A DNA stretch of 30,639 nt from a virus (IMGVR_UViG_3300020052_000025:1-30639), one strand, 5' to 3'. Shown: positions 1 through 22,285, numbered from the stretch's first letter. The notes: generated by a model not told the origin, from the letters alone. Numbers and translations: made by a program.

Positions 1-1
1 T

Positions 2-298
2 GCGGCCACTGCCGCGCAGGACGCCGCCGAGATTGCCGCCGCATCTATTAACATCCCCAACTCGCTCGCCGGGGAGGGTTCAAACTTTTTGCGTGTAAAG
101 GATGACGAGTCTGGCTACGAGTTGGTTAGCTCAGTGGCCCGCCCGACGTTCTTCGGCTTTAATCTAAGCGCAGACGGTACAGAGTTATTACACACATATG
201 GTAGTGACGACTACGTCGCATCCGAGTATACTACGTGGGCGGTAGGCGACGGCGTATCCTTTAGCGTCGTGAACAACAATCTGGTAGTGAACCTATGA
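2..298 (+). CDS. Tail fibre/appendage protein, C-terminal part (5' end outside window)
   Basis: The frame is open from the left edge, so this is the last 98 residues of a longer protein. The visible part starts with an Ala-rich stretch (AATAAQDAAEIAAAS), typical of the helical or collagen-like shafts of phage tail fibres. It continues with a GEGSNFLRVKDDESGYELVS segment resembling the connector that often precedes a fibre tip (pattern FLRVxxxxxxYELV). The end, with alternating hydrophobic residues and VSFSVVNNNLVVNL, looks like a beta-rich fibre tip. The stop TGA at 296-298 overlaps the ATG (295) of the next gene as ATGA, so the two are probably translationally coupled. The position just before two receptor-binding-type genes supports a tail appendage. 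Fibre identity is inferred from pattern and context; the N-terminal attachment domain cannot be seen. Confidence 0.7.
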   Translation, partial: AATAAQDAAEIAAASINIPNSLAGEGSNFLRVKDDESGYELVSSVARPTFFGFNLSADGTELLHTYGSDDYVASEYTTWAVGDGVSFSVVNNNLVVNL

Positions 299-1950
299 AT
301 ATAGATATTAGCCAAATCGGGTATCGCTGGAAGGGTATTTACTCTGAGTATCTGGCGTACGCTGACAACGATGTTGTTTACAAGAACGGCGGCGCGTATG
401 TCATTCGCAACGGCGTACCTGTAGAGTTCGCGCTGGGTCAGCAGGATGCGATCCTTAAAGGACACCTGCTTACAGGCGGTGTCTCCGCTGGCGGCTTTGG
501 GAATATGGTGCTGCATTCCAAGGGCGCGGATGGTGTAGAGTTCCGCTTCCAAGACACGCGCAACGGTACGTTAGCAACTGGGCTGATGGACACCCGCACA
601 GGCAGAACTGGGCAGTACTTAGCTTCGTCGTATTACATGATTGCCACCATGAATGACGGGTCTGCTCGCTCGTGGGGTAGCCAAGCTAATGGCAGAGGTG
701 GGGCGGGTAATCAGGACATCGGGCGCACGTTCCCAACACGCGTCGCGTTCCCTCCCGGCACTCCGCCGGTCACTAGCGTCTATAACGTATGGGCGCACAC
801 GTACCTGATAACCGCCGACGGCATGGCGTGGTCTTGCGGCATCGGGGACAATAACTTGGGCGGCGTTAACGCCACGAGCATCCCAATACCTAGAAAGCTG
901 CAGGGCTACGGCGACCTCGGCTCGACAACTAAGATTGTGAAGATTCGGGGGGCGTACGGCGACAACGCGTATCCACAAGCTATGCTTTTGGACGACCAAG
1001 GTCGTGTGTATGTGCTCGGCGCAAACCAGTATGGCTCGCTCGGCATTTCAGGCACCGCGAACGTCCCACGCCTACTCCCGTTCACAGAAACTGTGCCGAT
1101 CAGAGAGATGATCATGCAGGGGAGCCTGTATGGTGCCTCTCACCTCATCAGCCGGGATGGCGACCTCTATGTGGCGGGGCAGTCGTCCACATCAGGCTGG
1201 GGGCAAGTCGATCTTGCCGCACACCGCCTGTGGATGCCGTGGGGCCAAGATAAGAAGGTCAAGATGACTATGATGTCTGAGACCGACGCGCACTGGGCCA
1301 CCGGGTATAACGCGTACCGCACGCAGGGCGTCGTCCTTGAAAACGGTGACTTGTATGTGTGGGGTGACGGCGGCGGACAGACCAACAGCGGTTGGGGTGT
1401 CGGCTATAACTCCGACATTTGGCCCGGTAACCAGTACCACCCTCGCAAGGTGCTTGATGGCGTTGTAGATTACGGTGCCGTACAAGGTGGGTACCAGAAA
1501 CAGCTTGCTGTTCGAGATGACGGCACCGTTTGGGGGACTGGCGACAGCAACTACTCCGTAATTTCTACATCTCGCAACACTTGGGCGCAGGAGGGTGTTG
1601 GGGTTATCTCTAACGCAACGCGCCTTACCATGCACGGGTCGCAGTACTCGGCTACCGCCGGGGTACTGACAAGCGATGGCAAGGTGATTATGTGGGGCCA
1701 CGACGATACCGGCGGGTTCGGCACGGGGGACGCGGTTAGCCGTTCTAGCAATAACGCCTCGCCAGCGCTTATCCCCGAGCGAATTGTCGATTTTCAGTGG
1801 GTCGGCTATTTTGCCGTGTCTCAGCCCTACTTCACCACTATTTTCCTGACTGAGACCGGGCAAGTCTACGCATCTGGCTCGGGGTACTACAGCATCAACG
1901 GCGACGACGACAACGAAAACTGCTACAGCCCCCGACAAATTCTGTTTTAA
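295..1950 (+). CDS. RCC1-type beta-propeller tail protein, copy 1
   Basis: 551 aa. Residues 1-60 form a small module with the pattern W-K-G-x-Y-x(3)-Y-x(4)-D-V-V-Y-x-N-G-x-Y, like the N-terminal carbohydrate-binding-like modules of many phage tail proteins. From about residue 110 the protein has eight degenerate RCC1-type (alpha-tubulin suppressor family) loops, for example LGANQYGSLG, WGDGGGQTNSGWG and WGHDDTGGFGTGD, each followed by a strand and a hydrophobic 'xVxxDGxVYxxG' core. These repeats fold as a seven-bladed propeller in RCC1 proteins. It is a paralogue of the next gene, with the same order of parts and the same kind of C-terminal end (acidic DDD cluster, Y-S-P, terminal Phe). It overlaps the preceding fibre gene by 4 bp. 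The likely role is host surface recognition by a tail appendage; the ligand is unknown. RCC1 assignment is by visible repeats; the receptor role is inference. Confidence 0.75.
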   Translation: MNIDISQIGYRWKGIYSEYLAYADNDVVYKNGGAYVIRNGVPVEFALGQQDAILKGHLLTGGVSAGGFGNMVLHSKGADGVEFRFQDTRNGTLATGLMDTRTGRTGQYLASSYYMIATMNDGSARSWGSQANGRGGAGNQDIGRTFPTRVAFPPGTPPVTSVYNVWAHTYLITADGMAWSCGIGDNNLGGVNATSIPIPRKLQGYGDLGSTTKIVKIRGAYGDNAYPQAMLLDDQGRVYVLGANQYGSLGISGTANVPRLLPFTETVPIREMIMQGSLYGASHLISRDGDLYVAGQSSTSGWGQVDLAAHRLWMPWGQDKKVKMTMMSETDAHWATGYNAYRTQGVVLENGDLYVWGDGGGQTNSGWGVGYNSDIWPGNQYHPRKVLDGVVDYGAVQGGYQKQLAVRDDGTVWGTGDSNYSVISTSRNTWAQEGVGVISNATRLTMHGSQYSATAGVLTSDGKVIMWGHDDTGGFGTGDAVSRSSNNASPALIPERIVDFQWVGYFAVSQPYFTTIFLTETGQVYASGSGYYSINGDDDNENCYSPRQILF

Positions 1951-1962
1951 GAGGACCTACAC

Positions 1963-3624
1963 ATGGCTTCAATTTCTCTCGGCAAAATTGCTTTTAAGTG
2001 GCGCGGTGCCTATGACGCTGGCACCGCGTACGCAGCGCAGGACGTTGTGTCCTATAACGGCGACTCTTGGGTGTGCAAGACCGCCGCTACGGCGCAGACA
2101 CCCGCAGCTGGCACGTACTGGGACTTGTTCGCGCAAGGGTCCGCTAACATCGGCGCTAACGCCGGTGAGCTGATCTATAACGACGGCACAGGGCTCGCCG
2201 CGCTGCCCGTTGGTGAGGCGGGGCAGGTACTCCAGATCGACAAACTTACCCTCCTGCCTGTGTGGGGTCCGGCGGATGTGCGGTCCGCGACGCGCGTAAA
2301 AGCCCTGCCCGAGTCGACAAGATATAACCAACAAACGCTGACGTACCGCCACAACGGCGTCATCATGAACGACAACAGCGTTCGTATGTGGGGCGACAAC
2401 GCAGATTATCGCCTTGGTGATGGCACTACGAACGACCGGTCTTACCCCACTCGCCTGCCGTTTCCACCCAACTTCCCCGGTGTTGACAAGCTCTTCTTAG
2501 GCTATTATGGCCAACAGGCAGTGATTGATTTGGATGGGAAGTTGTGGACGTGGGGGTATAACGGATACGGGCAGCTCGGCACCGGCAACACAACCGCGCA
2601 GCGCGTCCCCTACTGCGCCAGCAACAACGAACTAAACTCTATCAACACTAAGACTGTTACCCACGTCGCCACACAGTGCGGACAGGAGGGGTACCAATCC
2701 ATGTTGGTGTTGTGCGCCGACGGGACTGTCCACACCGCTGGATACAACGGATACGGGCAGCTCGGTCAGGGTGACACGTCGCAGCGCAACTACTTTACGC
2801 AGGTCCCCGCGCTCAGCGACATCGTCTGGGTCGCGGCGGGGCGTGAGCGGTATGGCTGGTACTGCGCTATCTCTAGCACCGGCGTCTTATACACGTGGGG
2901 GTATGGTGGCGACGGGCAGCTTGGCGCCGGTAACACCAACAACTCGGCGCTCGCCGTACCTCGCACCACAGGCGTGCTATCTGGCAAGACGATGACCAAG
3001 GTCTGGTGCGGCCATACGTCTACGTACGCGCTTGATAGCAACGGGACGCTGTACGGCTGCGGCGCTAACTCGTACGGTTGTCTTGGTGATGGTAGCAACG
3101 CAACGCAGACCAGCTTCGTGGAGATTGAGACGGACGTGGAGGCGGTGTACGCCGGTGCGTATGACTACCCCATGGTCTTCCTTATCAAGACTGATGGCTC
3201 TGTCTGGTCGACTGGTTACGGCGGCTATGGCGGCAACGGAGACCCCGCTGCGGGGAATATCTCCACGTTTACCAAACTTGACTTCGGCTCCAAGATTGCT
3301 ACCAAAGTCATCCACAGCGGCACCGGGTCTTATAACTGGACTGCGGTCTTGTTTACCGACGGCACCGTTGAGATGTGGGGTTACAACGGCAACGGTGTTT
3401 TGATGCGCGGGGATACAACTACGGTGTATTTCGGCTCTCGCAACGTCGTACCTACGGGCGGTCTGAAGGTTGTTGACATCACTGGCTGGTGCCAGAGTTC
3501 GGAGCAGGCTGTCGGCTTCCTGATGGAGGATGGGCAGTACTTTGTCGGCGGCTACGCCGGGGAATCCGCGTTGCCTGAGGACGACGACGAAGCGTCATAC
3601 ACCCCGATGCCCGTACCGTTCTAA
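1963..3624 (+). CDS. RCC1-type beta-propeller tail protein, copy 2
   Basis: 553 aa. Residues 1-60 hold a Trp/Tyr-rich module (FKWRGAYDAGTAYAAQDVVS, then YNGDSWVC and TYWDLF) of the kind found in sugar-binding N-terminal modules of phage proteins. Residues 61-105 are a fibre-like linker ending in a VLQIDKLTLLPVWG segment. Eight RCC1-type loops follow, starting near residues 143, 197, 259, 312, 366, 417, 472 and 529; the clearest are WGYNGYGQLGTGNT, AGYNGYGQLGQGDT and WGYGGDGQLGAGNT. The repeats are far better preserved than in copy 1. The protein ends with an acidic EDDDE stretch, Y-T-P and a terminal Phe, as in copy 1. A GAGGA ribosome site lies at 1951-1955, 12 bp after the stop of copy 1. 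Probably a receptor-binding or adhesion propeller; no enzyme motif is seen. Confidence 0.8.
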   Translation: MASISLGKIAFKWRGAYDAGTAYAAQDVVSYNGDSWVCKTAATAQTPAAGTYWDLFAQGSANIGANAGELIYNDGTGLAALPVGEAGQVLQIDKLTLLPVWGPADVRSATRVKALPESTRYNQQTLTYRHNGVIMNDNSVRMWGDNADYRLGDGTTNDRSYPTRLPFPPNFPGVDKLFLGYYGQQAVIDLDGKLWTWGYNGYGQLGTGNTTAQRVPYCASNNELNSINTKTVTHVATQCGQEGYQSMLVLCADGTVHTAGYNGYGQLGQGDTSQRNYFTQVPALSDIVWVAAGRERYGWYCAISSTGVLYTWGYGGDGQLGAGNTNNSALAVPRTTGVLSGKTMTKVWCGHTSTYALDSNGTLYGCGANSYGCLGDGSNATQTSFVEIETDVEAVYAGAYDYPMVFLIKTDGSVWSTGYGGYGGNGDPAAGNISTFTKLDFGSKIATKVIHSGTGSYNWTAVLFTDGTVEMWGYNGNGVLMRGDTTTVYFGSRNVVPTGGLKVVDITGWCQSSEQAVGFLMEDGQYFVGGYAGESALPEDDDEASYTPMPVPF

Positions 3625-5275: not shown

Positions 5276-5626
5276 ATGGTGGACGCTAGCCGCGTCGTGA
5301 CCAAGAAATCTATCCTGTTGGCGTATCAGATGTTGCGCGGGATGGGCCCTTTTTGTGCGTGGAAGCTCCCCACAAAAATAGAAACCCGCGTCGTTAGCGA
5401 CGCGTCTATGTTCGGTTCGTTCGAGACAGAGCCGAGTCTTATAACAATCAGTACCGCACGAGTCTGGGATGTCAATCAGTTGGTAGCCACAGTGGCCCAC
5501 GAGATGATCCACCTGCACCAGCACAGACTAAAGCGGCTTAACGCGGACAACCCGCACGACGCGTTCTTCTTGGAGTGTGCCCGTGAAGTCTGTGTGTCTC
5601 TTGGGTTTGATAAGGAGAATTTCTAG
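5276..5626 (+). CDS. SprT-like HExxH metalloprotein
   Basis: 116 aa. Residues 75-79 are H-E-M-I-H, a zinc metallopeptidase signature within a hydrophobic helix (VATVAHEMIHLHQHRL). A likely third ligand is H94 in N-P-H-D-A-F-F, as in SprT-like proteins where H-x(2)-F follows the HExxH helix. Short phage SprT-like domains are widespread; cellular SprT/Spartan proteases act on DNA-protein crosslinks, but the substrate of small phage versions is not known. It starts two bases after the endolysin stop. Its TAG stop shares a G with the GTG start of the phosphoesterase gene (TAGTG), so it is probably co-translated with that gene. Placement in a late lysis region rather than the replication arm is unusual. 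Confidence 0.7.
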   Translation: MVDASRVVTKKSILLAYQMLRGMGPFCAWKLPTKIETRVVSDASMFGSFETEPSLITISTARVWDVNQLVATVAHEMIHLHQHRLKRLNADNPHDAFFLECAREVCVSLGFDKENF

Positions 5627-12476: not shown

Positions 12477-13754
12477 ATGGCTGGCTATGACGAGTGGTGG
12501 TTGATAAACAACGGCGGCGGCGGCGGCGACTGGAATTCCGGTGGCTACGGTGCATCAGCGCAGAACGCTGGAGTTCCTGAGTACGGTCCAACTCAGTCTG
12601 ACCCTTGGGCAGATGGCAGCTATGACTATAACTCTGGCGGACCTAGCGCACCGGCTCAGTCTGACCCTTGGTCAGATGGTAGCTACGACTATAACTACGG
12701 CGGGGCTGGGCTACCGGCTCAGCCTGACCCTTGGTCAGATGGTAGCTACGACTATAACTACGGCGGCAACGACTGGAACTCTGGTGGCTATGGTGCATCA
12801 GCGCAGAACGCTGGAGTGCCCACACAAGCACCTGTCACAGAAAACCAAGGCAGCTGGGATTCCGGCGGTTACGGCGCATCAGCACAGAACGCCGGGACGT
12901 TTGCGGTTACCACCGCGCAGAACGCCGGTGGCGACTTTGGAACTGGCGGAAGCGATACCTTCGCTAAAACTAGAGGACTAAACCCAAAGCAACCCAACAT
13001 GCTAAATCAGGCCCGCAGCGGGAACTGGGACTCTGGTGGCTATGCTGCGTCAGCGCAGAACGCTGGGGCGCCACAGGGCAACAGAAACCTCCCCACCAAC
13101 GACAACCCCGTAGAGCGCAACATCGATCGCGCGCAGACATGGACGCGGGACAACTACAACACCGCGCGGCTTGGGCTAGATTTGACTGGCTTGTTGCTGG
13201 CGAACAATGCGAATCGCTCTGCTAACCGTATGGCGCAGCAACAGATGCAGATGCAGCAGGAGGCGCAGCAAAAAAATGCGGCTATGGCCGACAAGTCGAA
13301 CGCGCAGGCAACGCAGTCATTTAACGAGGCCCGCAGCCTGTATAACCCGCAAGAGCGGGCGGTACGCGCCATGGCGCAGCAGCAGATGAACACCGCGCGC
13401 AACATGGTCGATGCTCGCAACCAGATGGCACGGGCAGGCAAGAGCAAAGCGACAATCGACGCCGAAATGCGCCGCGCCAAGCTACAGGGCAGTACAGGTG
13501 CTGCGACTGCGTACACAGCCGGTTTGGACATAGGCCGACAAGCACAGCAGCAGGCGCTCACAGCAGCCAAGGGCTTGACATCTAACTACAACACTACCGC
13601 GGACTACACTGGCGCGGACCGCGTGGCTAAAGCAGGTGTGGGGCAGGCGCAGCAAATTACTGGTATGCTGAACAACTACTTGGGCAACCCCGTGTATCAG
13701 CAGAACCTAGCTGCTTTACGCCGCGCGCAACAAGACGCATACTACTACCCATAA
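12477..13754 (+). CDS. gp14-like ejection protein candidate with repeat-rich N-terminus
   Basis: 425 aa. Residues 18-197 are low-complexity tandem repeats of two kinds. Repeat A (consensus Q-S-D-P-W-S-D-G-S-Y-D-Y-N-Y-G-G) occurs three times with a 21-residue period at residues 40-60, 61-81 and 82-97. Repeat B (W-[ND]-S-G-G-Y-G-A-S-A-Q-N-A-G) occurs at 19-32, 100-113, 127-140 and 184-197, with a partial copy at 147-151. Residues 225-425 are Ala/Gln/Met-rich helices (ANRMAQQQMQMQQEAQQKNA; ARNQMARAGKSKATIDAEMR), the composition and size of T7 gp14-like internal core proteins. Placed first in a set of three ejection-type genes, it should be delivered into the cell with the DNA. Ejection role is inferred from order and composition. 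Confidence 0.6.
   Translation: MAGYDEWWLINNGGGGGDWNSGGYGASAQNAGVPEYGPTQSDPWADGSYDYNSGGPSAPAQSDPWSDGSYDYNYGGAGLPAQPDPWSDGSYDYNYGGNDWNSGGYGASAQNAGVPTQAPVTENQGSWDSGGYGASAQNAGTFAVTTAQNAGGDFGTGGSDTFAKTRGLNPKQPNMLNQARSGNWDSGGYAASAQNAGAPQGNRNLPTNDNPVERNIDRAQTWTRDNYNTARLGLDLTGLLLANNANRSANRMAQQQMQMQQEAQQKNAAMADKSNAQATQSFNEARSLYNPQERAVRAMAQQQMNTARNMVDARNQMARAGKSKATIDAEMRRAKLQGSTGAATAYTAGLDIGRQAQQQALTAAKGLTSNYNTTADYTGADRVAKAGVGQAQQITGMLNNYLGNPVYQQNLAALRRAQQDAYYYP
12531..13067 (+). repeat. In-gene tandem repeats (63-bp period and GGYGASAQNAG units)
   Basis: Repeat A lies at 12594-12656, 12657-12719 and 12720-12767; the second and third copies differ at few bases over the core CTGACCCTTGGTCAGATGGT. Repeat B copies lie at 12531-12572, 12774-12815, 12855-12896 and 13026-13067, sharing GCATCAGCGCAGAACGCTGG or near variants. 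Near identity at the base level points to recent expansion by slippage or unequal recombination. Confidence 0.85.
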
Positions 13755-15852: not shown

Positions 15853-15885
15853 ACATAGTACCTAGATAAAATGCGCAGTGCGCGG

Positions 15886-15911
15886 TAGAATAGTTGCAGG
15901 TAAATCTGAGG
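15886..15911 (+). promoter_or_regulatory. Possible weak promoter and ribosome site before giant ejection gene
   Basis: The 64-bp gap 15853-15916 contains TAGAAT at 15886-15891 (5 of 6 to TATAAT) and GAGG at 15908-15911, five bases before the ATG at 15917. The -35 position at 17-bp spacing (15863-15868, TAGATA) is poor, so a promoter here is doubtful. A short self-complementary GCGC-AGT-GCGC lies at 15873-15883. The ribosome site is the firmer part and decides the start at 15917. Confidence 0.3.
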
Positions 15912-15916
15912 CCCTT

Positions 15917-18900
15917 ATGAAGAATATCTTTGACTATAACGCCCAAGCCAACGAAGCACTGCTGCAGGGCGGTGCGGCCACGCGCGCAAGTGGCATGCCC
16001 ACACAAGCGGCACTGCCGGGTACGCTAGCTCCGGGGGGGTCAAACGAGACAGGCGAGGCAATACTCGCGCGGATGCGGCAGAAGACACAGTCTCTGCTAG
16101 ACCCCGTTGAGCCGCAGCAGGTCCGCGACCCAATCTTGGGCTACAACCCCAACACCGGGCAAGTGTTTAGCGGTGGCAAAGTATTTGCACTGGACCTTAA
16201 CGAAGGCCGCCAAAACGCACCTTTGCTTGATGTGCATAACGAGCAGCTCCCCGAGGGTTTCTTGCCGCTTGAGTCTTCACAGGCCAAGGCAAAGCTGCAG
16301 CGTGATTATGATGGCTTAGACATCGTCGACGACTTCCAACGTCGGTTTGGTCAGGCTGCCTCCAACTACGGCAGCACAATCGAAGACCTCGGCGCTGAGT
16401 CTCTTGGTCGTGCCATGCAGCAGTATGGTGGTGACATCGCTGCGCGCAATCCGAGTAAGATTACTACCGCTAAAGATATTGTCGACAAGCCGATGACGCT
16501 TATCGGCGAGACTGTTGGCGAACTGGCATATGACCTTCCAGTCGCCCTCGGCACCACAGCCGCTGCGGTAACAGCTACTGCCCCAATCGGCTTAGCCCTC
16601 GCGCCTATGACAGGTGGCGCGTCGATTCCGCTTGTCGCTATTCTCAGTGGTCTGGGTAGTCGTTTCCTTACTACGATGCTTGAAACGTACGGCAGTGTTC
16701 GCTCGGAGCAGCGGGCAAAAGGCATCTACGACCCAACTGCAGCGGCCACGTCAGGCCTTGGCTCTTCTGCGCTAGAAGCTCTCGTCGGCCCGGAAGCCCG
16801 CATCGGTGCCCAGCTTGCAAAGAAGTCCGCGCAGGCTGCGGGTAGGCAGTACGCGACGAAGAAAGGCACCAGTGAATTACTCGCGCCGAACGCGGCTAAG
16901 AACGCACGGGACTTGCTGAAAGAAAACGCATTTAAATACGGCGGCAAGAAAGCGCTCCAAGACTTTGCCACAGAGGGTGGCACCGAGATTGCCCAGAGTG
17001 CTATGGAGCGTGCGGGTGCTTACAACGACCTGACAAGCCCTGAAGCGTTTGACGAGTATGCAATCTCTGGTGTTAAGGGCGGCATCGGCGGAGCTATGAT
17101 TAGCCCCCTGAGCACTATGGCCGAATTCCAAGACGCCAAGTCTTTTATGGAGAGCCTTAAAGCGGACATGGCTGACGCGGCGAACACCGCCCTGCCCAGC
17201 GCTCAGCGCATACAGGCAGCAAAACGCGTGCAGGATGTGTTGCGGGGGTCTTCGAGTGATGCGGAGTTTAACGCGCAGCTCCAAGAGTTCCGCGGACTTT
17301 TAGCGGAAGTCGACCGAAAAATTACAGAGGACGCGACTAAGCAAGCTCTCGCCGACGGCAGCCCAGTTAACTTGATGGATGCTGCGCCGCAACAGGACTT
17401 GTTCAACCGTGGCATGGACGAGGGCGCCAACGCACAGGGGGAGCAGGCAACGACCCAGCTCCAGAACATGGTCGCGCGAGTGATGCAAGAGGAAGCGGAA
17501 AAAGAGGACGGGGAAACACAGGTTACCGCAGAAATCCTGCGGAGGGCAGAAGAGCGCTTGCGCGCAGAGGCTGCCGCCGGAGCGCCGCAACCGCAACAGG
17601 ACTATTCCGGTCAAATTAGTCTGTTCGACGAAACTGACGCGCCTACATACCAAGCTGACCCTTCGTTTGGCGTATCACAGTTCGAGGCACAGCAGGCGTT
17701 CCAAGGCCCAACGCTCGACACACCGGCAGCACGTTTTGATGTCGCCGCGCGGCAGATGAACAGCGCGCTAGATTTAGAGGGTATCGGCGGTTTCCCGCAA
17801 GTACCGACTCGCCAACCCGTAACGAATGACCCCAACAGCCCGTTGACCGGCGACTTAGGTCCGCTGCAAACCGAAACGCTGCAAGGTCCAACGCGCGGCC
17901 CACGTCCTATCTCAGACGTGCTATCCCCTCTGCAACGGGCGTCGCTGAGCCGCCCTGCTAGTCCTATCGTCGGTGGCGTGGACATGAGCGGCCTTAGCCT
18001 CGATATTGGCGGAGCAGCTGCCCCAGTCTCGGCTCCGAACCCTGCAGTTGAGACAGCCGCCTTTGGGCGCCCCTTGCGCACAGTTTCTCCAACGGTCGAT
18101 GGACGCACCGACCTTACACCTCCCGCAGCTCCGGCTGCAGGGGGTGCTTTTTCTCAACAAGCTGCTCAGGATTTAGGCTTAGATAACCTCGAGTCATCTG
18201 TTGCTGGGCAGGTCGGCACCGTCCCCCCGATGCAGGGTACCATCGGCCAAACTGAAGCTATCAACATTACTAGCGGCTTGCTGTCGTCGGGCGGCAAAGT
18301 TCAAGGCCGGAGCACCCCCAAGGCGCAAAGCACTTCGGACGCACTGCGGACGTTTGCCATAGCGTGGTGGAAATTCACGAACTCTGGCACCAACTTAAAC
18401 CGCCCGACGAAACCTGTTAAGGGGGGCACCACGGCGCAAGCCAACGCCGAACAAAGCCTACGAACACACCTGCGCTATAAGGATGAGGCCGAGCAGGCTC
18501 TTACCGCCCTTGGCGAACTGGTTGGTTACAACGCCAAAGACCTGCAGACGCTAATCGCCACATCTAAAAAGCAGGTACAGGCAATCCTTAGCAACGTCGA
18601 CTTCAACGCACTGTCTAAGGAAGATCAGGCCATCGTCCAAGCGATGCAGAAGATCGACGTGAACTTGTCCTCTGGTTGGGCCGCCGCCAAAACAGATATT
18701 TTCCGGGGCGGCTACGACATATTTATGTCGAAGTCAAATGACACTCGCCAAGCTAGCGAGATGAAAGCCACAGGAAAGAAGTTGCAGTTCCGCAAAGCTG
18801 CCGAAGAAGGGTATGGAAACATAGCTGGCAACGCCGAGCTGGAGTACACCGGGTTCTTTGGCATCCTGCAATACATCCGGTTTAACGGCAGCACGTACGA

Positions 18901-21900
18901 CAAGGTGCTCGCGCGCGCCATCCGCGAAACGATGATTAAGGTGGACGAGTCCAGCCTTAGCCGGGAGGAAAACATTGCAGCGCGCCGCGAGCGCATGAAC
19001 GCTCCTGATATTCCTCGCGTTCAGTTTATTACAGAGGGTAACCCCCGCTTCGACCCGAACACCAACACCATCTACATCCGCGAGGACGACAGCCCTTCTA
19101 CCGTTCTACACGAGGCACTCCACGGTGCGTTGCAAAGTTTCGTCTACAACAACCCTGACCACCCCAACGTCAAGGCGCTGAAACAATCGCTCAAAGCGGT
19201 TATTAGCTATAAAGGCGCGCTGGGGGAAAGGGCTAGCAAAGTACGCGACATCTTGCGCGGCATGGTAGAAAAAGGAAACGAGCTTGACGCTGTGTTGGAG
19301 CTTATATCCTACGGCAACACCCTAAACGACTTCCGCAAAGCCATGGAAGCAATGCCTACCAAGGGCACGCCAAAGAGCTTCCTGCAGATGGTTAACGATG
19401 TGTGGAACAACGTTCTGGCTTTGGTTCGCCAGCTCACCGGTCTGAAGGGTAACACCGAGGCTGGTAACGTCATCAACCGCACATTTGAACTGCTGGCCGA
19501 AGCAGGCATGACACCTGTAGCTGAGGACGTAAGACCCAAGGGTAACGTGCTGGAGGCCGCCGTGCGGGCAGACGACCCAATGGATGGGCCTCAGAAACAG
19601 TTGCTCAAGCGCCCGGGCACCGAACTGCCGAGTTCCGCTGATATCTCACGCTTTAACAAGACACTGCTGCCTAAGTACTTAAACACAAAGGTGCTGTTTG
19701 ATCTTGTTGGCTGGAACAAAGCTGAGTCGTTCATCGGTAAATTTGCCGAGGCATCCGCAGACTGGGTACGCCGCAACTTCCCAGCCCTTGCAGGGGCGCT
19801 GACCTATATCCATGCGCACTTCAACACCCCGCATTTGCTCCGTGCCACGTTCCAAGAGTACAAGAACAACAAGCACGCGGGCTATCGCATGGCGGAGCGC
19901 TTGGCTACCAGCATTGAGAAGCTGCCCACCGACAAAGTATCCGAAATCTTCCGCTATCTGGACGGCGACCAAAACGCGCTTAAAGATGACGATGCAATGC
20001 GTGAAGTAGCTGACGACGTCCGCAAGTGGCGTGACTACTACGTCCAAGAGCTGGGCGACGACAAAGCTAAAGCGTTCTTTGCAGGCGGTAAGTTCTCTGA
20101 GACTTTGCTGTTCCCAACATCACGTGAGAAAGTAGCTTCTGATTCACTGGGTGTGCGTGGCATGTCTCGTCTGATCGGTTTGCACAAGCGCTCTGAGAAG
20201 AACCTGCAGACGGACTGGCTGGCTACCGACGCAAGCGGTGACTACATGTTGGACAACCGCAAGTTTATGCAGGTGTTTGAGGACAAGAACGGTAAGCGTG
20301 TGCCCGCTGGCTTTATTGACCAAGAAGTTTTTGCTAAGAATGGCGCACCAGTCGGCACAACGGTCGACAACCTGCACAACTGGGTGTTTGATAAGTACGT
20401 CAACGGCGAGTATCGCTTCGAGGCGCACACCACCGCCGCTCAGGTTATCCGCGCAAATAAGGCCGACCAGCTCGCAAACGCACTGCGCAACACCATGGCA
20501 GCGCTGGGCAACAGCTTCGCGTCCAAGACGTTTACTGACTCAGTTGCAAGCTATGGTGTAGAGGAAGGCAAGCGCACCGCTACCTCTGTCGCCTTCAGCA
20601 GCATCGAAGAAGCTGAGAAAGTTCTCGGAATCAAGATTAACCCAGACACAGTTATTACCGCCAACAGCGAAACTAACCGCACCCAAGCTGTGTCTCACCA
20701 GTATCGTAGCCCTTCATTGTGGGTGCGTATCCCCAAAGGCGCGCGCTACGGTGCGCTGGCTGGCATGGTGATGAAGTCATCCGTCTGGTCCGCGATGCAA
20801 GACACCAGCAACCGCAGTCCGTACGTCAGCAACCAAGTTGCCTCTGGGGCGATGCGCTGGTTCAAGCAGGCTAAGACAGTCTACAACCCCAGCACGCACA
20901 TGACCAACGTGGCGACGAACGTGTCTATTGCCATTATGCACGACTTGTCGTTTGGAACCATGGCGCAAGCTGGAAAGCTGTTTGCGATGTACCACGCGGC
21001 GCCTAATTCGATGTCACAAGCCGACCGCTCCTTGGTGCGTGCCTTCTTAAACTCTAGCGCCATGCTGGGCGACTACTCTAGCACCGAGGTCAAGCAGGCA
21101 TTGTCACAAGCGCTGCTGAACGCCGCAAAAGAGGCGGAGGGTAACAAGTCATTCCTCACCGGCGTGTTCGGTAAAGTGGCGCAGATGTCGCTGTATGAAA
21201 AACATAAGAGCAAGATAGCTACGACGGCTAAGGGAGGAAAAGCCGTACACGATTTCGCTAACGGCCTGTATGCTGCGGAAGACAACGTGTTCCGCTTGGC
21301 TCTGTTCCTGAAGTCAGCCGCTGAAGTCGCCGCCCACAAAGGCGAGAGCGTCCCGTCGCAAGCAACCTTTGACACCGCTGGTAACATGGCGCGTGACGGG
21401 TTCCTTGACTATGACATCGACGCCTACGCAGTTAAGGCGACCCGCGCTTCTGTGTTGCCTTTCGTATCGTGGCCTTATGCTATGGCAGGCATGCTCGGCA
21501 AGATGGCAGTCCACAAGCCTTGGGCTATTGTCAACTTAATGCTGGCATATACTGTCATGGAGCACATCATGCAGGAGATTTCCGGTGGCGACGACGAAGA
21601 CGAGCGTCTGCGCAAAACTGGCCCTGAGCATCTCCGTGAGCGTGCCTTCGGTGGTATCGGCCCCTACACCAGTGTGCGCATCCCGTTCATGGGCGACGAC
21701 CAGAACCCGGTTTACTACAAGCTGGGCGACTATAACCCTGTCTTTGCATTAGGGCGAGTTGTTGGTGAAGGCAAACCATCTTTCATGGGACAGTCGTGGA
21801 TACCTTCGGCGCTTCAGCCCGGCGGCCCATGGATTAGCGGGTTAATGATCGGTCTTGCAGGCATTGACCCGTGGACAGGCAAAACGCTGTCGTCTACCAC

Positions 21901-22285
21901 AGCCACCAACCTAGAGAAGCTGGGTGCCCGCCTCCAAGCCTTACAGGGTCAGTTCTCCCCCAACCTGCCGTTTGTTAACCTGAACGAGTGGGATAAGTTT
22001 GTGGAGACGCAGAAGGGTCGCCTCGACCGCTCTGACAATGCAGCTGCATTACAATGGGCACGTTGGGCCGGTTTCAAGGTCTACGATTACAACGTAGATC
22101 AGGCGAAGATTCAGCAGAGCCGCGCAGCTCGTGCAATCATGGGGCAGTACAAAGCAGAGATTTCAAAGCTGCGCCGAGCCGAAGCCCGATACGAGCGCCC
22201 AGACTGGGACGCGTTCCGCGAGAAACAAGCCGAGCTTCTGGTGCGTATGCAAGAGGCGACGGCTAAAGCCAGAGGAGAAGCCTAA
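15917..22285 (+). CDS. Giant ejection protein (2122 aa) with zinc metallopeptidase motif and LPD38-like C-terminus
   Basis: Largest gene in the window. The ATG at 15917 is preferred over an in-frame GTG at 15878 because GAGG lies at 15908-15911. Residues about 205-250 are hydrophobic (LGTTAAAVTATAPIGLALAP), a possible membrane-inserting stretch. Residues about 560-790 are Pro/Gln-rich and look disordered. A zincin motif H-E-A-L-H is at residues 1065-1069 (H1065, E1066, H1069), with E1128 in V-L-E-L-I-S-Y-G as probable third ligand; the pattern matches zincin-like domains of phage polyvalent proteins. Residues about 1600-1950 (SSVWSAMQDTSNRSPYVSNQ; ARDGFLDYDIDA; LPFVSWPYAMAG) match what I recall of 'large polyvalent protein-associated domain 38'. 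The size and location after the SLT protein are those of a gp16-like ejection protein. A peptidase inside it would act in the virion or the infected cell; its substrate is unknown. Confidence 0.75.
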   Translation: MKNIFDYNAQANEALLQGGAATRASGMPTQAALPGTLAPGGSNETGEAILARMRQKTQSLLDPVEPQQVRDPILGYNPNTGQVFSGGKVFALDLNEGRQNAPLLDVHNEQLPEGFLPLESSQAKAKLQRDYDGLDIVDDFQRRFGQAASNYGSTIEDLGAESLGRAMQQYGGDIAARNPSKITTAKDIVDKPMTLIGETVGELAYDLPVALGTTAAAVTATAPIGLALAPMTGGASIPLVAILSGLGSRFLTTMLETYGSVRSEQRAKGIYDPTAAATSGLGSSALEALVGPEARIGAQLAKKSAQAAGRQYATKKGTSELLAPNAAKNARDLLKENAFKYGGKKALQDFATEGGTEIAQSAMERAGAYNDLTSPEAFDEYAISGVKGGIGGAMISPLSTMAEFQDAKSFMESLKADMADAANTALPSAQRIQAAKRVQDVLRGSSSDAEFNAQLQEFRGLLAEVDRKITEDATKQALADGSPVNLMDAAPQQDLFNRGMDEGANAQGEQATTQLQNMVARVMQEEAEKEDGETQVTAEILRRAEERLRAEAAAGAPQPQQDYSGQISLFDETDAPTYQADPSFGVSQFEAQQAFQGPTLDTPAARFDVAARQMNSALDLEGIGGFPQVPTRQPVTNDPNSPLTGDLGPLQTETLQGPTRGPRPISDVLSPLQRASLSRPASPIVGGVDMSGLSLDIGGAAAPVSAPNPAVETAAFGRPLRTVSPTVDGRTDLTPPAAPAAGGAFSQQAAQDLGLDNLESSVAGQVGTVPPMQGTIGQTEAINITSGLLSSGGKVQGRSTPKAQSTSDALRTFAIAWWKFTNSGTNLNRPTKPVKGGTTAQANAEQSLRTHLRYKDEAEQALTALGELVGYNAKDLQTLIATSKKQVQAILSNVDFNALSKEDQAIVQAMQKIDVNLSSGWAAAKTDIFRGGYDIFMSKSNDTRQASEMKATGKKLQFRKAAEEGYGNIAGNAELEYTGFFGILQYIRFNGSTYDKVLARAIRETMIKVDESSLSREENIAARRERMNAPDIPRVQFITEGNPRFDPNTNTIYIREDDSPSTVLHEALHGALQSFVYNNPDHPNVKALKQSLKAVISYKGALGERASKVRDILRGMVEKGNELDAVLELISYGNTLNDFRKAMEAMPTKGTPKSFLQMVNDVWNNVLALVRQLTGLKGNTEAGNVINRTFELLAEAGMTPVAEDVRPKGNVLEAAVRADDPMDGPQKQLLKRPGTELPSSADISRFNKTLLPKYLNTKVLFDLVGWNKAESFIGKFAEASADWVRRNFPALAGALTYIHAHFNTPHLLRATFQEYKNNKHAGYRMAERLATSIEKLPTDKVSEIFRYLDGDQNALKDDDAMREVADDVRKWRDYYVQELGDDKAKAFFAGGKFSETLLFPTSREKVASDSLGVRGMSRLIGLHKRSEKNLQTDWLATDASGDYMLDNRKFMQVFEDKNGKRVPAGFIDQEVFAKNGAPVGTTVDNLHNWVFDKYVNGEYRFEAHTTAAQVIRANKADQLANALRNTMAALGNSFASKTFTDSVASYGVEEGKRTATSVAFSSIEEAEKVLGIKINPDTVITANSETNRTQAVSHQYRSPSLWVRIPKGARYGALAGMVMKSSVWSAMQDTSNRSPYVSNQVASGAMRWFKQAKTVYNPSTHMTNVATNVSIAIMHDLSFGTMAQAGKLFAMYHAAPNSMSQADRSLVRAFLNSSAMLGDYSSTEVKQALSQALLNAAKEAEGNKSFLTGVFGKVAQMSLYEKHKSKIATTAKGGKAVHDFANGLYAAEDNVFRLALFLKSAAEVAAHKGESVPSQATFDTAGNMARDGFLDYDIDAYAVKATRASVLPFVSWPYAMAGMLGKMAVHKPWAIVNLMLAYTVMEHIMQEISGGDDEDERLRKTGPEHLRERAFGGIGPYTSVRIPFMGDDQNPVYYKLGDYNPVFALGRVVGEGKPSFMGQSWIPSALQPGGPWISGLMIGLAGIDPWTGKTLSSTTATNLEKLGARLQALQGQFSPNLPFVNLNEWDKFVETQKGRLDRSDNAAALQWARWAGFKVYDYNVDQAKIQQSRAARAIMGQYKAEISKLRRAEARYERPDWDAFREKQAELLVRMQEATAKARGEA

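Follow-up and report, generated by a model that had tools for sequence, protein, structure and literature searches.

We analysed 30,639 bp of viral DNA, a fragment of record IMGVR_UViG_3300020052_000025 (the whole stretch is referred to here as the window), in which two adjacent genes encode proteins of 551 and 553 amino acids (aa), P1 and P2, built of RCC1 repeats. Together, P1 and P2 probably make up that end of a modular phage tail which binds the receptor, an exchangeable unit of two propellers. A reading made from the sequence alone had taken them for tandem paralogous RCC1 propellers, located in the tail and likely to act as adhesins; the paralogy, the fold, the location and the proposed role are all supported below, the role as adhesins being well supported but unproven. 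Both genes lie where that reading had placed them, but the unit is larger than the pair, as the gene truncated by the left edge of the window encodes its anchor, a tail fibre protein.

Results

Exchange and distribution of the P1–P2 cassette

Exchange of the pair was seen in prophages. Between two prophages of one Achromobacter strain (L116 and L121), the tape measure and DUF1833 proteins are 98% and 97% identical, respectively, in contrast to P1 (54%) and P2 (51%). At the DNA level, identity between L118 and L121 falls from 91–99% to about 58% at approximately residue 66 of P1, past the N-terminal module, and recovers after P2. As the drop spans the P1 propeller and P2 between conserved flanks, the two have been replaced as a block. 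This is the modular exchange known of tail fibres, where the distal part is replaced and the backbone conserved; the N-terminal module of P1 stays with the anchor when the propellers are swapped.

We scanned contigs with the family alignments and, as the sequence-only reading had proposed to look for, found adjacent P1–P2 pairs in many viral contigs, from uncultured phages, and in prophages. The podovirus-like group of the window includes L008 (no differences over 7,947 bp; window positions 1–298 correspond to L008 5707–6004), L077, L012, L009, L010 and L078. The pair is also present in lambda-like contigs (L079 and L094), together with a tape measure, DUF1833 and a gpJ-type protein, in T7-like contigs with PF03906 anchors (L080, L085–L088, L090, L091 and L097) and in a further contig, L082. 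P2 follows intact P1 wherever the contig extends beyond it. A scan of bacterial genomes gave 17 P1 loci, nearly all in Burkholderiales and most in lambda-like prophages, with P1 followed by P2 in 16 of them. Cultured carriers include Achromobacter pulmonis ANB-1 (two loci), Cupriavidus pauculus, Zwartia panacis, Tepidicella baoligensis and Polynucleobacter. Of the 17 loci, two came from a metagenome-assembled genome labelled Bacteroidetes, which may be mis-binned.

Among 50,697 phage records, megablast with window positions 1–24,999 gave no match, tblastn with P1 (window and prophage versions) gave no full-length relative and only partial, distant RCC1 matches, and blastn with the L121 cassette gave one short match, in its flank. 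P2 matched 49 phage records, some through the N-terminal module alone, and many BFVD entries, so RCC1 propellers are less uncommon in phages than had been assumed. One relative, G003 (L101–L103; 51,953 bp), has identical ends of 92 bp, so that the genome is probably complete and either circular or circularly permuted.

The anchor and the N-terminal modules

The gene order anchor–P1–P2 is found in unrelated backbones. The complete anchor protein has 282 aa and matches tail fibre PHROGs 8469 and 30299. Its stop codon overlaps the start of P1 (ATGA), and a stop–start overlap is usual at this junction. The N-terminus of the anchor varies with the type of phage: L080, L085, L091 and L097 have PF03906, the N-domain of T7 tail fibres, L079 and L094 a lambda-like-specific start, and the group of the window a tail-fibre PHROG start. 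The last ~85 residues are the only part common to all cassette anchors. P1 lies in the tail gene block, immediately downstream of anchors with tail-fibre PHROG or PF03906 matches. In the window, P1 and P2, which are 12 bp apart, are flanked by the tail anchor on one side and by lysis genes on the other; L068, whose phage is related to that of the window (54% identity in the phrog_511 protein), has other fibre genes in the slot of the cassette.

This context bears on a function that has been suggested for such proteins. Eukaryotic RCC1 binds nucleosomes, and the PHROGs category of the families is DNA, RNA and nucleotide metabolism. The jumbo coliphage phAPEC6 encodes eleven RCC1-like proteins, for which its authors proposed a role in ordering DNA (PMC7247149). 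That P1 and P2 similarly organise DNA in the capsid is, however, highly improbable, given that the genes stand between the tail anchor and the lysis genes, that fibre genes take their place in L068, that there are anchors of the T7-fibre type, that RCC1 is fused to a T7 fibre N-terminus in phage PollyC, and that diversification is one-sided on the propeller (see below). The phage RCC1 families PHROGs 4219, 7220 and 16766, all filed under this category, have members in tail fibre genes and virions, and were probably misfiled.

The N-terminal module of P2 is 36–48% identical to pelagiphage proteins, in which it is joined to other C-termini, and in 7 of the 8 pelagiphages examined the gene right after the tail fibre starts with a P2-type module. 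Comparison of the C-terminus of the pelagiphage fibre with the C-terminal domain of the anchor gave an hhalign E value of 3e-4 (probability 40%; controls above 0.04). A hidden Markov model (HMM) of the anchor domain gave a single weak match among pelagiphage fibres, and kinship is suggested only by the profile–profile comparison. The pelagiphages (HTVC024P gp44–gp43, HTVC025P, Gjalp and others) resemble the cassette in having a fibre with a similar C-terminus followed by a gene with a P2-type module; unlike P2, however, the product of that gene has no RCC1 propeller and carries other C-terminal domains.

RCC1 repeats and the predicted fold

RCC1 repeats in both proteins are far above chance. 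P2 matched PF00415 (3.3e-38) and PF13540 (6.3e-19), and P1 matched PF13540 (2.5e-16) and PF00415 (8.8e-11), in all cases above the curated cut-offs. The short Trp/Tyr module noticed earlier at each N-terminus is present as well: that of P2 barely exceeds the cut-off of CBM_5_12 (PF02839; 27.2 bits against 26.2), and that of P1 resembles it but lies below Pfam detection, with no match to PF02839. In L085, L088 and L097, a domain of ~120 aa is inserted in the P2 linker; its GHPL...YYCASH pattern recalls copper-binding folds.

AlphaFold2 predicted propellers for both proteins from shallow inputs of 14 (P1) and 13 (P2) family members, with a pLDDT of 78.8 and a pTM of 0.78 for P1, and 86.5 and 0.77, respectively, for P2. 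The DSSP strand lists, from which rather than from coordinates the models were judged, contain eight four-stranded blades each, with parts of P1 blade 5 at low confidence. As the sequence-only reading had counted, there are eight repeats in each protein: an HMM of the blade found eight in 14 of 14 P1 and 9 of 12 P2 proteins, the remaining three P2 having extra weak matches outside the eight. The same HMM found seven repeats in 14 of 15 stand-alone phage RCC1 proteins. The top structural matches of both models in the PDB were the RCC1-like domains of UVR8, HERC and RCC1 (P2 model against UVR8: Z 36, 350 residues, 3.7 Å), which have seven blades. P1 and P2, with eight, depart from the canonical RCC1-like domain in this respect. 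The sequence gives the eighth repeat good support, whereas closure of the eight-blade ring is a prediction only. The acidic end that had been described as a separate part turned out to belong to repeat 8, whose c–d loop and final strand it comprises (GSGYYSINGDDDNENCYSPRQILF / GYAGESALPEDDDEASYTPMPVPF).

P1 and P2 are paralogues and distinct families

An alignment of P1 with P2 runs through both proteins from end to end (BLASTP, 26% identity, E 2e-22), and their blade profiles match in register, the mean score being 51 between equivalent blades and 27–35 for any circular shift. The full-length alignment and the blades in register show them to be true paralogues over the whole gene, as had been proposed.

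In a phylogenetic tree, P1, P2 and the other phage RCC1 proteins formed three separate groups (support 100/100, 97/93 and 100/100, respectively). Complete P1 members scored 593–867 on the P1 model and 100–170 on the P2 model; complete P2 members scored 656–929 on the P2 model and 158–257 on the P1 model. Distances among P1 and among P2 proteins were correlated (r 0.89, Mantel p 5e-4), and in 52 of 55 comparisons P1 had diverged further than P2. The contrast between loose loops in P1 and strict canonical loops in P2, which had been noticed in the window, held in the family, where P1 loops are loose in every lineage. Since separate clades are co-inherited across many phages, the split between P1 and P2 is older than their spread, and on their sequences the two are old, distinct families. 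The sequence-only reading had explained the contrast by a recent tandem duplication, in which one copy kept its function and the other drifted to a new ligand. Homology over the full length in blade register and the difference in loop strictness fit such a history, which is nevertheless very unlikely: the tree contradicts a recent event, the loops of P1 are loose in all the phages in which the clades are paired, the distances correlate, and both copies are retained, with neither decaying.

Amino-acid change is concentrated on one face of P1 in a recent cluster

We analysed selection in a recent cluster of three near-identical metagenome contigs (L009, L010 and L078), in which pN/pS of P1 was 1.29–1.91. 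Over the ~19 kb common to two members, P1 had 21 nonsynonymous and 5 synonymous changes, versus 41 and 54 in the other open reading frames (ORFs; Fisher 8e-4, or 7e-5 with P2 included). The a–b and c–d loops, which make up 163 of the 458 positions of the P1 propeller, contained 27 of its 33 changes (p 2e-8). Indeed, 27 of these 163 positions were changed, versus none of the 87 positions of the b–c and d–a loops on the opposite face (p 4e-6). Such clustering on one face is what a ligand-contact face would show.

We considered whether this variation came from targeted mutagenesis by a diversity-generating retroelement, and not from selection on ordinary mutations. Most of the changes affected the first two positions of NNC/NNT codons, and among the 41 altered codons 8 differed at two or more bases, as would suit such an element. 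Nevertheless, no reverse transcriptase (PF00078) was found in the five records searched, which include an essentially complete 52-kb relative (G003), BLAST of P1 against G003 gave no template-like repeat, and the altered sites were spread across all eight blades and not over one short region. A retroelement is, thus, a scarcely credible source of the variation.

Another possibility is that there is a single receptor binder, most likely P1, with P2 as a structural or chaperone-like partner whose role on the tail is to cap P1 or to space it. Of the recent amino-acid changes, nearly all are in P1 (21 versus 5), which evolves faster, P2 keeps strict canonical loops, and the first ~66 residues of P1 remain with the anchor in the exchange. 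However, P2 is swapped in the same block as the P1 propeller, its two alleles have diverged as far as those of P1 (51% identity), pelagiphages have P2-type modules after their fibres but no P1, and in the pair L085/L088 the a–b and c–d loops of P2 vary more than its other face does (p 0.006). We regard a single binder as unlikely, though a serious alternative to two receptor-binding propellers.

Several observations weigh against P1 and P2 as a receptor-binding end. The excess of amino-acid change is limited to the one recent cluster, and in other pairs, prophages included, dN/dS of P1 and P2 is 0.01–0.16, indicating purifying selection. The one-face bias was not significant for P1 in the older pairs window/L077 and L085/L088, P2 has just five changes in the recent pair, and we only infer the docking of the modules onto the anchor. 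P1 is under purifying selection at longer range and apparently under diversifying selection in one recent cluster. For P2, the bias was not significant in the pair window/L012.

Other features of the window

Table 1. Anchor, P1 and P2 in the window and their parts
Feature	Position	Strand	Basis or remark
Anchor (tail fibre) gene, 3' end, truncated by left window edge	1–298	+	ends in DDYVASEYTTWAVGDGVSFSVVNNNLVVNL
P1, 551 aa, first RCC1 propeller protein (loose loops, evolves faster)	295–1950	+	ORF, Pfam, alignment, model
P1 N-terminal Trp/Tyr module (WKGxY...Y..DVV), residues 1–44	295–426	+	model; DNA kept to ~residue 66 across exchange breakpoint
P1 linker, residues 45–93 (model confidence mostly low)	427–573	+	model
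P1 predicted eight-bladed RCC1-type propeller, residues 94–551	574–1947	+	model, repeats, structural matches
P2, 553 aa, second RCC1 propeller protein (strict GYNGYGQLG loops)	1963–3624	+	ORF, Pfam, family HMM, model
P2 N-terminal module, CBM_5_12-like, residues 1–58	1963–2136	+	PF02839 3.9e-6; pelagiphage matches
P2 linker, residues 59–111	2137–2295	+	model
P2 predicted eight-bladed RCC1-type propeller, residues 112–553	2296–3621	+	model, repeats, structural matches

Elsewhere in the window, a gene for a SprT-like metallopeptidase (5276–5626; PF10263 2.6e-6) immediately follows that for an M15 endolysin, and a 425-aa protein (12477–13754) has repeated DSGGYGASAQNAG-type units close to its start. 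A protein of 2,135 aa (15878–22285), without a PHROG match of note, contains a HEALH stretch (LHEALHG) that resembles a zinc metallopeptidase motif.

Discussion

The above results suggest how the cassette may work. The N-terminus of the anchor, which by sequence is specific to the type of phage, would attach the unit to the tail, and its shared C-terminal domain would dock the Trp/Tyr modules at the starts of P1 and P2. Each protein would then display a predicted eight-bladed propeller, the a–b/c–d loop face of which, judging from the one-sided diversification of P1, may touch a ligand on the host surface. P1, as the fastest changing, is probably the main determinant of specificity, and P2, with its strict loops, probably binds a more constant ligand or cooperates with P1. 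The P1 propeller and P2 can be exchanged together in a single block, as the two Achromobacter prophages show. In its most specific form, this proposal describes a plug-in, two-headed cassette, in which two eight-bladed RCC1 propellers with distinct ligands dock through a shared adaptor on unrelated podovirus and siphovirus tails, are exchanged as a block and are diversified on one face; we put forward this form only tentatively.

A phage RCC1 tail protein was already known; the paired, eight-bladed, exchangeable module is new here. Among the known systems closest to it are the Pseudomonas phages PollyC, Littlefix and Ppr_SeaP4 (phrog_4219), which have an RCC1 propeller at the T7 tail fibre position with a T7-fibre N-terminal anchor; in PollyC and SeaP4, the propeller makes up the C-terminal part of the fibre. 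Theirs, however, is a single fused protein, in which seven repeats are detectable in the case of PollyC, with neither a separate anchor nor a P1–P2 pair. In Vequintavirinae and Rak2-like phages (W70_237–239, phAPEC6, 121Q, GAP32 and PBES 02), RCC1 genes adjoin one another or, as in PBES 02, directly follow a tail fibre gene, but their proteins are of ~40 kDa and do not form a P1–P2 pair. Three adjacent RCC1 proteins of W70 were all found in the virion by mass spectrometry (PMC11370258), as was one of GAP32, and 121Q has many copies (PMC5259590).

The RCC1-like domains of eukaryotic RCC1, UVR8, HERC and RPGR, and bacterial BLIP-II, share the repeat and fold with P1 and P2; they differ in having seven blades, functions in GTPase exchange, photoreception or inhibition, and no phage modules. 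A survey of repetitive propellers recorded some of RCC1/BLIP-II type that come from viruses (PMC9218822). The phage proteins phi11 Gp45 (five-bladed; PMC4901313), PRD1 P2 and phiKZ gp131C resemble P1 and P2 in using a propeller as the proven or suspected cell-facing domain of a receptor-binding protein, but belong to other propeller families, with no RCC1 repeats reported.

Our literature search, for which subscription papers were largely out of reach, found no paper that deals with the cassette or with receptor binding by RCC1 in phages, and no tested function for phage RCC1 proteins. Some matches to 'RCC1' were Roscoff culture numbers (PMC12906663 and PMC8066274) or Rhodobacter locus tags (PMC10218006), which are unrelated.

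Other RCC1 arrangements were also seen. The unannotated record of Clostridioides phage ES-S-0173-01 (L074, 5862–10643) contains an ORF of 1,593 aa with ~24 RCC1 repeats, apparently three propellers per chain. A separate family (L026, L033–L035, L040–L046, L049–L054 and L058–L062) forms arrays of 3–4 consecutive phage proteins of 650–1,700 aa that match the P2 model; many have RCC1 repeats and some start with a P2-type module.

The cassette provides an evolutionary argument for phage RCC1 proteins as host-recognition proteins and points to their probable binding face. Since cultured bacteria carry natural allelic variants of it in their prophages, the idea is directly testable there. If true, the two-headed cassette would give phage RCC1 proteins their first demonstrated function, and the few folds known to bind receptors in phages would be joined by a repeat propeller. 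It would also be a tail part shown to move as a block between different tail types, and may explain the tandem RCC1 arrays of many uncultured phages.

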